Below are positions 4,024 through 61,110 of a stretch of 64,000 nucleotides of DNA, piece by piece. Position 1 is the first letter of the stretch, and each line of letters begins with the position of its first letter. This stretch comes from Halonatronum saccharophilum DSM 13868 (GTDB lineage: Bacteria > Bacillota > Halanaerobiia > Halobacteroidales > Halobacteroidaceae), in contig NZ_KI912094.1 in assembly GCF_000517025.1 (NCBI RefSeq), positions 74,716-138,715 of the forward strand. Reading direction: 5' to 3'. The notes below the pieces were generated by a model. That model had not been told where the DNA came from. It was given only the letters and a program-made list of their open reading frames with translations, and made no database searches. The translations under genes and the position numbers were made by a program.

Positions 4024-4043
4024 AAAATTTAAAAAATATGTAT

Positions 4044-4151
4044 ATTCTTCTCCCATCCAGACTTTACTGTCGGCTCTGGAATCTCACCAGATCAGCACAA
4101 GGCTCGCGGGCTATCACCGCCGGTTAGGAATTTCACCTTTTCCTGAAGAAT
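4044..4151 (-). promoter_or_regulatory. FMN riboswitch (RFN element)
   Basis: The minus strand carries the conserved RFN blocks in order: GGTGAAATTCC, ACCGGCGGT, AGCCCGCGAGC, a variable arm, GGTGAGATTCCAGAGCCGAC, AGTAAAGTCTGGATGGGAG, closed by a P1 stem ATTCTTC/GAAGAAT. It lies between a promoter and ribD and precedes a terminator hairpin, so FMN should repress the rib operon at the transcription level. Confidence 0.97.
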
Positions 4152-4173
4152 CTATTCTCTTTTCTAATTATAA

Positions 4174-14639: not shown

Positions 14640-14757
14640 TTAACGCGAATTAAACACAAATCAAAACCAAGAGATAGTCTATAATTTCAAAGGTCCCTCA
14701 GGGTTTTAAAAGGCAAAAACCCTTCGTGGAATCTCAACTTCAAAGGTCCCTCTATCC
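14640..14757. repeat. Intergenic repeat module with hairpin between def and fmt
   Basis: Two direct repeats TTCAAAGGTCCCTC (14686-14699 and 14739-14752) bracket a hairpin GGGTTTT/AAAACCC (14701-14707 with 14716-14722) and CTTCGTGG. Related modules lie at 60950-61000 and 61024-61088. The start of the block (about 14636-14660) has CTAATTAACGCGAATTAAAC words resembling the element at 32070. Confidence 0.6.
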
Positions 14758-14772
14758 TCTATTAACTGTTCT

Positions 14773-15213
14773 TCATACCAGTTGGTCAACAAAAAGCTTT
14801 CCATTCAAGTGATCTATCTCATGCTGTAAAGCCCTTGATAATAAGCCTTTAGCTTTAATCTCAACCTCTTCTCCATCTCTATTAAGTCCCTTAACCCTTA
14901 TAGTATAATTACGTTTAACATCGCCCATCTGATTGGGAATACTTAAGCAACCTTCTTGATCTATATATGTCTTATTAGACCTTGAACTAATCTCTGGGTT
15001 TATTAGTTCAATAAGACCATCACCTATATCTACAAGAATAATCCTTTTAGAGATTCCAACTTGAGGGGCAGCTATACCTATACCTGGAGCATCATACATA
15101 GTCTCTGCCATATCATCAAGTAATCTTAATATATTATCACTTATCTCTTCTACCTCTTTGGCCTCTGTCCTTAAAACTGGATCTCCTATCTCTCTTATAT
15201 TTAAAATCGCCAT
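14773..15213 (-). CDS. def: Peptide deformylase
   Basis: Removes the formyl group from nascent N-terminal methionine. All three metal-site motifs are present: GIGIAAPQVG (about residue 44), EGCLSIP (about residue 89) and QHEIDHLNG (about residue 130, HExxH). The true start is ATG at 15213 behind GGAGGTG with 5-nt spacing; in-frame sequence upstream runs into the repeat element. 146 residues, normal for the short class. It lies downstream of priA, separated by a 344-bp hairpin-rich element, and upstream of fmt. Confidence 0.97.
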   Translation of the reverse strand: MAILNIREIGDPVLRTEAKEVEEISDNILRLLDDMAETMYDAPGIGIAAPQVGISKRIILVDIGDGLIELINPEISSRSNKTYIDQEGCLSIPNQMGDVKRNYTIRVKGLNRDGEEVEIKAKGLLSRALQHEIDHLNGKLFVDQLV

Positions 15214-15231
15214 ATTTACACCTCCGTGATT

Positions 15232-15545
15232 TATTACTGGAATCAAGAACAAGCAATCTGGAATCAGTAGAGTTGTTATCTTCACATGTTTTTGAGTGAA
15301 GATAACGCTCATAGAAAGCCTCTTGAGGCTTGTAAGGCAAAATTATCTTTACATGCTTTTAGGTAAAAATAATGAGCACGGAAAGTTCTTTAGAACTTGT
15401 AGAGAGTTATTATCTTCATATGTTTTTGGTGAAGATAATACTCATGGAAAGCCTCTTGAGGCTTGTAAGGAATCAAAACCTGTACCTTTAAAGATTAGTG
15501 GTTTTACTGATTCCTGGTTGTAGATTCCAGATTCCTGCAACTGAA
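15232..15545. repeat. Hairpin-array element: three tandem ~67-bp units with two stem-loops each
   Basis: Unit starts at 15275, 15342 and 15408. Each unit has stem A (GTTATCTTCAC/GTGAAGATAAC in unit 1) and stem B (AAGCCTC-TT-GAGGCTT in units 1 and 3; AAGTTCT-TT-AGAACTT in unit 2, with both arms changed together). The block is bracketed by related GGAATC/GATTCC words in opposite orientation (15238-15270 and 15507-15536). It fills the gap between priA and def. No transposase and no convincing ORF. Confidence 0.8.
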
Positions 15546-15557
15546 AGTTACACTATA

Positions 15558-17789
15558 TTATAACATTGTTAAGGGATCAACATCAACACTTACTTTGATA
15601 TCGCTTTCACCCATTATTTCTTTTAGCTCAATTAAAGCCTCGTTATTTACATCTCTTAATCTACCTATGTCCTTACCTTTTAATATAATCTGCCATCTAA
15701 ATTCTCTTCTCACCTTTGCAAGAGGGGCTTGAACTGGACCTAAAATCATAATCTCCTCACTATCCATTTCCAAAATCTTAGATCTTAAAATTTCACCTAG
15801 CTTATTAGTATTTTTAATCACTTTAGCCTCATCTTTATGACTGATTACTATATTGATCATACTAGAAAAAGGTGGATAAGCGGTTGCATTCCTAAAAGCT
15901 ATCTCAGCTTCATAAAAATTATCATAATTATGGTCCTTCGCAAATTGTATGCTATAATGATCTGGAGTATAACTTTGGATAATTACCTTCCCCAGTTTAT
16001 CGCCCCTTCCAGTACGACCTGCTACCTGTGTTAACAACTGGAAGGTTCTTTCCCCAGCCCTAAAGTCTGGAAGGTTAAGAGATGTATCAGCTGTAACTAC
16101 ACCTACTAAGGTAACATTAGCAAAATCATGCCCTTTAGCAATCATTTGAGTCCCAATAAGTATATCTATCTCTCCACTTTTAAACTTAGAAAGTATCCTT
16201 TCATAAGAGCCTTTTCTTCGAGTAGTATCTACATCCATTCTAGCCACCTTTGCTGTAGGAAACTCTTCATTCAAACTCTCTTCTACCTTTTGAGTGCCAA
16301 CACCAAAGTACTTAATATAAAGACTCTCACACTCTGGACAGATTCTAGGAACCTTCTCCTGATAATCACAATAGTGGCACCTTAAACCTCTTTCTTGGGC
16401 ATGGTATTTTAATGATAGATCGCAATTAATACATTTCATTACATGACCACACTCTCGACATTGAACGAAGGTAGAAAAGCCTCTACGATTTAAGAAGATC
16501 ATTGCTTGTTCACCCTTATCTAAAACCTGCTCGATCCCTCTATAAAGAGAGCGACTGAACATAAGCTTATTCCCTTCTTTTAATTCTTCTCTCATATCTA
16601 CTATCTCTACTGGAGGAAGGGGGCGCCCTTTAACTCTTTTAGTCAACTCTATCAACTTATACTTACCATCTTTGGCCCTATGATAAGACTCCAAAGATGG
16701 GGTAGCAGTTCCCATCAATACAAGTGCTCCTTCTTTTTTGGCCCTCATTACTGCAACCTCTCGGGCATGGTATTTAGGGTGATCTTCCTGTTTATAAGTA
16801 CTTTCATGCTCTTCATCAATAACTATTAAACCTAAATTATTAAAGGGAGCAAAAACAGCAGATCGAGCACCTATCACTACCTTAATCTTACCCTCTTTGA
16901 TCCTTCTCCATTCATCAAAACGCTCTCCAGAGGACAACTGACTATGTAAAACTCCTACCTTCTCCCCAAATCTACCTTTAAAACGAGCGACAGTTTGAGG
17001 AGTCAAGGATATCTCAGGAACCAAAACAATTGCTTCTCTTCCTCCTCTTAAAACCCTATCTATAGCTTGCAGATAGACCTCAGTCTTGCCGCTACCTGTT
17101 ACACCTTTTAACATAATAGGTTTTCTATCACCTTTTAAACCTTCAATGATCTCTTTAATAACAATCTTCTGCTCACTTGTAGGGGAAAATGCTTCAGTTT
17201 TCTTAAAGCTTATATGAGCAAAGGGATCTCTTCTCACCGACTCATTCCTATATTCAAGAAAGCCCTTATTAACCAAAGCACTTACAGTTGAAGAGGTTGT
17301 ATTGACCTTTTGGGCCAACTTTGTACTTATCAACCTATCCTCTGGATTATCGATCAGATAAGACAATAATTTAGCCTGCTTAGGAGCTCTAGACTTTAAA
17401 CTCTCAACAATCTCTTTACTCTCTTTGATTGATTGGGCCAAAACTACTACTCTCTTCTTCTTTACCTTTACTTTTCCACTAGGTACCATCGCCTTCAATG
17501 AACTAACCAGATAACATTGATAATAATCACTTATCCACCTAGCAAGATCTAACATCTTCTTACTGAAATATGGGCCAAAGGGAAAGACCTTTATAATCTC
17601 CTTGGCTTCAAAATCCCCTTTCTTACCCTCACCTACTACATACCCTTCAATCCTGCGGTTACCAAAAGGCACCAATACCTTATCCCCAATAACAACCTTA
17701 TCTGAAAGCCTTTGTGGAAGTTTGTATGTAAAAGGTTTATCTACATTTTTAAGGGGTAAATCTACAACTACATTTATATACCTATCCAT
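15558..17789 (-). CDS. priA: Primosomal replication-restart helicase PriA
   Basis: DNA helicase that reloads the replisome at repaired forks. The 743 residues run: N-terminal 3' DNA-binding and winged-helix region (about 1-200), helicase lobe 1 with GVTGSGKTEVY (Walker A) and VIDEEHES (DEEH box), a zinc insert with paired cysteines (CRECGHVMKCINC and CHYC...CPEC, about residues 445-490), and helicase lobe 2 with the VAGRTGRG motif. The ATG follows GGTGTGATAG, 26 bp behind the UPF0104 gene. Gmk/rpoZ/coaBC, often upstream in Firmicutes, are absent. Confidence 0.97.
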   Translation of the reverse strand: MDRYINVVVDLPLKNVDKPFTYKLPQRLSDKVVIGDKVLVPFGNRRIEGYVVGEGKKGDFEAKEIIKVFPFGPYFSKKMLDLARWISDYYQCYLVSSLKAMVPSGKVKVKKKRVVVLAQSIKESKEIVESLKSRAPKQAKLLSYLIDNPEDRLISTKLAQKVNTTSSTVSALVNKGFLEYRNESVRRDPFAHISFKKTEAFSPTSEQKIVIKEIIEGLKGDRKPIMLKGVTGSGKTEVYLQAIDRVLRGGREAIVLVPEISLTPQTVARFKGRFGEKVGVLHSQLSSGERFDEWRRIKEGKIKVVIGARSAVFAPFNNLGLIVIDEEHESTYKQEDHPKYHAREVAVMRAKKEGALVLMGTATPSLESYHRAKDGKYKLIELTKRVKGRPLPPVEIVDMREELKEGNKLMFSRSLYRGIEQVLDKGEQAMIFLNRRGFSTFVQCRECGHVMKCINCDLSLKYHAQERGLRCHYCDYQEKVPRICPECESLYIKYFGVGTQKVEESLNEEFPTAKVARMDVDTTRRKGSYERILSKFKSGEIDILIGTQMIAKGHDFANVTLVGVVTADTSLNLPDFRAGERTFQLLTQVAGRTGRGDKLGKVIIQSYTPDHYSIQFAKDHNYDNFYEAEIAFRNATAYPPFSSMINIVISHKDEAKVIKNTNKLGEILRSKILEMDSEEIMILGPVQAPLAKVRREFRWQIILKGKDIGRLRDVNNEALIELKEIMGESDIKVSVDVDPLTML

Positions 17790-25253: not shown

Positions 25254-25364
25254 CATCTACTGCAATTACATCTCTCAAGGCTATCCTTGTAGGAATTAGC
25301 ACCTTTCCCTTATCTAGGGTGGTTGCCGAGCTTCATAGGGCCTATCCCTCCACTACTCTTGATG
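25254..25364 (-). promoter_or_regulatory. SAM-I riboswitch (S-box)
   Basis: The minus strand contains the S-box blocks AAGAGTAGTGGAGGGA, GGCCC, GAAGCTCGGCAACC, and GGTGCTAATTCCTAC in consensus order and spacing. It precedes metK with a downstream intrinsic terminator, so SAM should switch off metK transcription. Confidence 0.96.
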
Positions 25365-25385
25365 TTTTTTAATTTTATTATCAAT

Positions 25386-60774: not shown

Positions 60775-61110
60775 AGCTAGAAACTATGCGCTTTGTGCTA
60801 AAAACCTAAACCCAAAAATCTTAGCACTGATCAAGAACCGATCAAACCCGATTAAATCTGATTTTAAACCTTTTTAATTTTTTTATGCTCTAATCAGAAC
60901 TTTATCGACTCTTATCAGATCTAATCACCCCAGAAGTACTTTTCATGGTTTATAACCCTTCGGGTTCAAAAACCGAACCCTTCGTGGCAAGCCCACCATA
61001 AACCATTTATGGAATCTAAATCTAAAAGGTCCTTTCAATGTTTTAAAATTCAAAAACATCTCTTGGAATCTAAATCTAAAAGGTCCTCCTCACTCGGTAA
61101 AAAACACCTC
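60775..61110. repeat. 468-bp gap with composite repeats, upstream of the metallophosphoesterase gene
   Basis: Contains GAT(C/T)-rich words (60829-60930) in opposed orientation, a hairpin GGGTTC-AAAAACC-GAACCC with TTCGTGG (60962-60987), and a 23-bp direct repeat at 61011-61033 and 61065-61087 ending AAAAGGTCCT that brackets a hairpin ATGTTTT/AAAACAT (61039-61045 with 61053-61059). No ORF or promoter was recognised in 60751-61218. Confidence 0.6.

Follow-up and report, generated by a model that had tools for sequence, protein, structure and literature searches.

Nostoc SDR elements, which Elhai et al. reportedly described in 2008, are said to be tiny dispersed hairpins with compensatory changes that occur within heptamer repeats or minitransposon-like composites and insert precisely. 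They are also characterised in papers citing that work (PMC3116915, PMC4390886). The double-hairpin elements of fungal mitochondria consist of adjacent hairpins that are potentially mobile and are found in both intergenic and genic positions (Paquin et al. 2000, as presented in PMC10085805). GTAG-REPs are defined by a GT[AG]G tetranucleotide on the 5' side of the hairpin foot, at a distance of 0-2 nt (PMC6006769), and GTAG-REPs and REPINs are associated with RAYT transposases (PMC3733652, PMC2817692, PMC3116915, PMC6006769). Rickettsia palindromic elements are palindromes inserted in frame in proteins (cited in PMC3733652).

The locus described here lies in a 64,000-nt window (the whole stretch of DNA that was analysed) of Halonatronum saccharophilum DSM 13868, in the gap between priA, the upstream gene of an operon (15558..17789, minus strand, NCBIfam TIGR00595), and def, the downstream gene, which encodes peptide deformylase (14773..15213, minus strand, NCBIfam TIGR00079). 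The def start is at 15213, after GGAGG, and a 179-aa ORF that enters def from the side of the array does not represent the gene. Tandem Repeats Finder detected the top-scoring array of the whole window at 15269-15468 (period 67, 3.0 copies, score 219). Together with the sequence itself and direct-repeat spacings of 67 and 66, this bears out the three two-stem units of about 67 bp proposed in a first-pass annotation of this DNA. The units, of 66-67 nt each, are arranged head-to-tail, run antisense to the priA-def operon, and each contains two stems, A with 11 bp and B with 6-7 bp. Unit 1 (15275..15337, plus strand) is composed of stem A, CATAGA, stem B (AAGCCT/AGGCTT) and GTAAGG; unit 2 (15342..15404, plus strand) has AAGTTC/GAACTT as stem B and the consensus feet CACGGA and GTAG; unit 3 covers 15409..15470 (plus strand). 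They scored 82.9, 76.2 and 78.9 bits, respectively, with R2, a covariance model of the two-stem unit for which all three were training sequences. The stem-B module of unit 2 (15377..15405, plus strand) scored 34.9 bits with R1, the covariance model of stem B, and is the nearest copy to the genome-wide consensus CACGRA-stem-GTAG. The stem-B arms read AAGCCTC/GAGGCTT in units 1 and 3 and AAGTTCT/AGAACTT in unit 2, so the two-sided change with preserved pairing noticed earlier is indeed present in the sequence.

The units stand where they had been placed, while the repeat proved to be part of a larger composite of about 15230-15555. This composite (15230..15555, from sequence and fold) comprises a left terminal hairpin remnant, heptamer-like arms, the three units and a central hairpin, followed on its right side by the right arm and then the right terminal hairpin, a layout that recurs in other copies. 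The left arm (15239..15269, plus strand) contains GGAATC words at 15239-15244 and 15260-15265. They are opposed, as the first-pass annotation had claimed, by GATTCC words at 15509-15514, 15523-15528 and 15530-15535 in the right arm (15505..15540, minus strand), whose period-7 words GATTCCT/GATTCCA complement the left arm. An extra GGAATC (15469-15474) lies immediately 3' of unit 3. The stretches 15234-15269 and 15505-15540 are 72% complementary, and with these arms the whole region is a large imperfect palindrome. Its predicted RNA fold has an energy of -99.7 kcal/mol, compared with -57.7 +/- 5.1 for 100 shuffled sequences (z -8.3), and the DNA fold gave a z of -6.6. The right terminal hairpin TGCAACTGAAAGTTACACTA (15536..15555), common to other composites of the genome, is retained, whereas comparison of copies showed that only TTTATTACT (15230..15238) is left of the terminal hairpin AGTAATAAAGCNNNGCTTTATTACT that other composites have on the left.

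The units matched no Rfam family at either gathering or relaxed thresholds, and a search of IMG/VR returned no match. They are 60-81% alike, with a GC content of 30-40%, and follow each other without spacers. A CRISPR array was rejected, since the 67-nt units are not identical repeats and have no unique spacers between them. The earlier statement that the array is no known riboswitch or CRISPR thus stands. Elsewhere in the window, Rfam identified FMN and SAM riboswitches at 4041-4154 and 25265-25368, respectively, both on the minus strand.

When the array region was searched against its own genome, 34 matches were obtained, which form a family of intergenic composites with internal hairpins. 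These composites end in the hairpin AGTAATAAAGCNNNGCTTTATTACT on one side and in AGTGTAACTTTCAGTTACA or AGTGGCACGAAAGTGCCACTA on the other, and their arms are made of degenerate heptamer-like words, the left complementary to the right. In stem B, variable arms lie between conserved feet, CACGRA on the 5' side and GTAG on the 3' side. The core module starts with a leader, 8-20 nt long and often GGATAYGGTTTTTRTGGTTTT, which is followed by CACGRA, a 6-10-bp stem and GTAG. The long form carries another hairpin, stem A, instead of the leader, which yields the two-stem unit, while the short form has a single hairpin, compared with the left and right subterminal hairpins of IS200/IS605-type elements, in which guide tetranucleotides pair with the cleavage sites. 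The 3' end of stem B is fixed at GTAG. Of 59 non-redundant copies, 54 have G as the next base, where the host sequence starts, and there is little conservation more than about 3 nt past GTAG. The window contains two further stem-B modules, one between def and fmt with the direct repeat GGGACCTTTGAA on both flanks (14694..14728, minus strand, R1 E 0.011), and one 3' of a cinA-like gene (60955..60986, minus strand, R1 E 2.5e-4). Close to the latter, a related leader forms a tandem array (61000-61110, minus strand) of AGGACCTTTTAGATTTAGATTCCA copies with hairpins, and a related leader was also seen at def-fmt and in locus L070.

With R1, counting copies at E<=0.1, 62 copies were found in the own genome and 41, 3, 52, 60, 86, 110 and 100 in seven other Halobacteroidaceae genomes. 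A second family of the same order had 0-3, and 18 genomes from other families of the class had no R1 match. In an even draw of 299 genomes of the phylum, only three had matches at E<=0.001, all from the same order. An exact-pattern scan of 84,980 species returned only Natroniella acetigena, N. sulfidigena, Halanaerobacter jeridensis and Orenia metallireducens. R2 detected 13 strong double-hairpin units in the own genome, three of which form the array at priA-def. The Orenia group has strong copies as well (up to 16 matches per genome), including independent tandem arrays. The search of the genome and its relatives that had been suggested for such units therefore succeeded, with units dispersed in the relatives and separate arrays there. 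Absence from all relatives, which would have made the array a neutral local duplication, does not hold for the unit. Judged by these searches, the unit belongs to a lineage-restricted family found in the Halobacteroidaceae and near relatives.

The stems stay paired while their letters differ between copies. In hand-trimmed sequences that had been picked as hairpins, 99% of stem-B cells were paired among 17 copies, with 29 two-sided changes compared with 7.3 in shuffles; in 12 copies of the double hairpin, obtained in the same way, there were 22 two-sided cells compared with 5.8. The covariation check proposed earlier thus came out positive, with 10 of 17 double-hairpin pairs changed on both sides and none of 500 shuffles reaching as high. 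Because these alignments had been picked as hairpins, inserts were also picked by their flanks alone. Among the 63 distinct inserts obtained in this way, 46 had a stem of at least 5 bp, and these stems comprised 20 different arm pairs, compared with 27% when arms were swapped between copies and 0 of 26 inserts when the flanks were scrambled. The first-pass annotation was right to name either structural constraint or copying by template switching as the cause of the covariation. Template switching is documented as a source of paired arm changes in RNA genes, and such an origin requires no RNA function (PMC8794818). Slippage and template switching might even suffice without any mobility enzyme, creating and spreading the hairpins, making the tandem units and keeping the arms paired. 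Tandem units, X-hairpin-X patterns and the clustered multi-base paired changes between adjacent units fit this, as does the known ability of template switching to make and mend hairpins (PMC8794818). However, local slippage cannot place the same leader, feet and hairpin in unrelated genes, introns and CRISPR repeats, nor confine a family to one lineage at 41-110 copies, and we consider this explanation improbable.

The stable fold (z -8.3) and the covariation (0/500 shuffles) could also point to a structured RNA of the priA-def operon, i.e. a leader, attenuator or processing site whose covariation comes from selection on the RNA, and the unit also occurs in other operon gaps, mnmE-mnmG and leuC-leuD (genes read from sequence). 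However, in one of the sampled genomes (G002) and in order-level relatives, only 66-93 nt separate the priA stop from the def DPVLR codons, and no element lies between them. In Natroniella the gap has a different composite, and in Orenia-group genomes it has only heptamer-like words or unrelated sequence. Modules lie beside unrelated genes, and between codirectional gene pairs 35 are in sense and 37 in antisense, so the sense-strand bias expected of a cis-acting RNA is absent. Furthermore, the window units are antisense to the operon and copies interrupt tnpB genes. A structured RNA of this operon is therefore highly improbable, and the earlier idea that the array could be a processed def leader or a priA tail was not upheld. 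Because the gap differs in relatives and the modules show no strand preference, a regulatory role of the array for the operon is unlikely, and it has no evident function there.

Several copies could be compared with empty sites, with partners from other genera, so single-base boundaries of the inserts are ambiguous. The own tnpB gene of the insertion sequence on contig C7 (L042) carries 43 nt that its homologues in Natroniella (L209/L211) lack, the one on contig C8 (L043) has a 42-nt insert relative to an order-level homologue (L215), and an Orenia-group tnpB (L080) has a 36-nt insert relative to the same homologue. No obvious target duplication was seen in these three filled/empty comparisons. 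The stem-B modules of the own genes, at L043:2700-2745 (C8) and L042:2368-2415 (C7), have intact homologues in relatives; both genes, situated 3' of the two own Y1 tnpA genes, are broken by them. In one group II intron type (RF02005), a 47-nt module is present in the own genome and a 45-nt module in Orenia metallireducens (L198:6709-7009, L199:1105-1404). They occupy two positions about 20 nt apart, each is absent from the intron of the other genus, and the filled/empty comparison of this intron gave no clear target duplication. An MCP gene in G002 (L206:3637-5604) carries an in-frame 33-nt hairpin insert in the conserved tip region, EAARA[SSTTEGSRTRR]GKAGQGF. In the own genome, repeats of two CRISPR arrays are interrupted by the long form, of about 95 nt with two hairpins (L032-L038; G000:C5:42-61 kb and C7:145 kb). 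A clear target duplication is likewise missing at the MCP and CRISPR insertions. Since copies sit cleanly in genes and in an intron with empty counterparts in relatives, the family is apparently mobile; the family itself is real and lineage-specific.

Junctions at gene ends are of another kind. At several of them the sequence 5' of the hairpin recurs 3' of it. In two rRNA-tRNA operons of G012 (L079/L087), the tRNA-Glu 3' end GGATGCCA is duplicated around stem-B modules, and repeats of upstream sequence are also found at an MCP end (L088), at a leuA-like end (L031) and in mnmE of G003. The direct repeat GGGATAGAGGATAAG begins directly after GTA(G). At the tnpA 3' end (L043:1808-1920 and L080) there is a 110-nt insert made of a diverged tnpA C-terminus plus a stem-B hairpin; the diverged C-terminus, GDITSQSIKQYVQQHTK, occupies the homologous place of the original one, GNVSSETIQHYIENQ, which lies displaced behind the insert. 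By manual count, identity to empty tnpA sites is about 92% for the displaced C-terminus and only about 65% for the new one, so a simple target duplication does not account for the insert. The same layout is seen in an RHS gene of G002, the paralogue comparison covering its downstream part only. These repeats and replacements suggest either integration anchored at the 3' end or template switching, the 5' junction being homologous.

For this reason a SINE-like retroelement was retained as an alternative, in which the RNA 3' hairpin and GTAG end would serve in target-primed reverse transcription, with a fixed 3' end and a varying 5' junction. The fixed 3' end and variable 5' part, the repeats starting right after GTA(G), such as GGATGCCA at the tRNA gene end and GGGATAGAGGATAAG, the homologous position of the tnpA C-terminus that opens the 110-nt insert, and the presence of group II RTs in every genome tested, among them a group II maturase beside one own-genome copy, all agree with it. 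However, insertions in genes and introns with empty counterparts lack target duplication, and heptamer words and tandem units can mimic one. A target-duplication score of at least 10 was reached by 23 of 145 copies compared with 6.5% of controls; both values are inflated by heptamer words, CRISPR repeats and tandem units, and the difference was therefore rejected as proof of TPRT. Less weight was given to the TSDs read at L061, L066 and L070, since their GGATAGA-like words and GGCACCTTTAAAATTGAGATT leader are themselves repeated. RTs occur in 13 of 13 genomes in numbers without relation to hairpin number (23 RTs and 3 hairpins in G002), and no RT element was seen to have the 3' hairpin in common with the modules. 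The SINE-like reading is therefore considered unlikely. Its more specific version, a double-hairpin retroelement family with an RNA of 45-110 nt, a 3' hairpin/GTAG that primes RT at sites starting with G/GG and a homology-resolved 5' junction, is unlikely as well; if true, insertions at gene ends could bring a replacement C-terminus.

Taken together, these features indicate that the array probably arose when a short, mobile but non-autonomous hairpin module was amplified locally within a heptamer-armed palindromic composite. A composite with one unit would have landed in the priA-def gap, after which the unit was repeated in tandem. The folded single strand may be the form that is recognised and moved, and our leading guess, a tentative one, is that this is done in trans by a Y1/HUH transposase of the IS200/IS605 or RAYT type. 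This proposal rests on the hairpin shape, the lack of target duplication and the fixed foot. Against it, the upstream sequence recurs on the far side of several copies, which a clean Y1 insertion would not predict, and Y1 counts do not track hairpin counts. Y1 transposases were found in 11 of 13 genomes: G002 and G009 have a few hairpins and no Y1 match, G005 and G007 have 86-100 hairpins and only broken Y1 copies, and G011, with nine Y1 matches, lacks hairpins altogether. RAYT-like genes were detected in G003 and G004, broken in G006 and as a fragment in G005, and a search of the own genome for them gave no match. Y1, RT and RAYT counts were accordingly rejected as the cause of hairpin copy number. 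The RAYT-like gene of N. sulfidigena (G004, L221:1140-1420) has GTAGGGGC-type hairpins upstream in both orientations, and one stem-B module also lies upstream of it; this locus looks like a REPtron in this lineage. Changes in the arms could stay paired if one arm serves as template for the other during replication (quasipalindrome correction) and, alternatively or additionally, if only foldable copies move.

At about 45 nt, such modules would rank among the smallest mobile elements. With natural filled and empty sites, 3-110 copies per genome inside a single bacterial family and many paired arm changes, this family makes the mode of movement directly testable, as well as the origin of the covariation, whether by selection or by arm-to-arm copying. 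It also gives a warning that covariation inside an intergenic array need not imply a functional RNA.

By mode, the described systems that appear closest are the Nostoc SDRs, the fungal mitochondrial double-hairpin elements and the REPs. Like GTAG-REPs, the modules are palindromes of 20-40 bp with a stem of 5-13 bp in many copies, with an unpaired GTAG at one foot, compensatory stem changes and occasional positions inside genes. However, in every member used the stem is followed by GTAG, which in GTAG-REPs stands on the 5' side, and the own genome has no RAYT-like gene; the modules are not GTAG-REPs because GTAG is 3' of the hairpin, contrary to the definition. Insertion without target duplication, observed here though not at all sites, is shared with IS200/IS605-type (Y1) elements, and the in-frame insertion in the G002 MCP gene resembles, by description, that of Rickettsia palindromic elements. 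The fungal elements likewise have two adjacent hairpins in one module, as found here with R2, but they are GC-rich and mitochondrial, whereas the module here is AT-rich and chromosomal in bacteria. The likeness to Nostoc SDRs, drawn from their description, lies in dispersed hairpins with compensatory changes, in their embedding in heptamer repeats or minitransposon-like composites, both found here, and in precise insertion; the present family differs in its phylum, in its feet (CACGRA ... GTAG) and in its two-hairpin long form.
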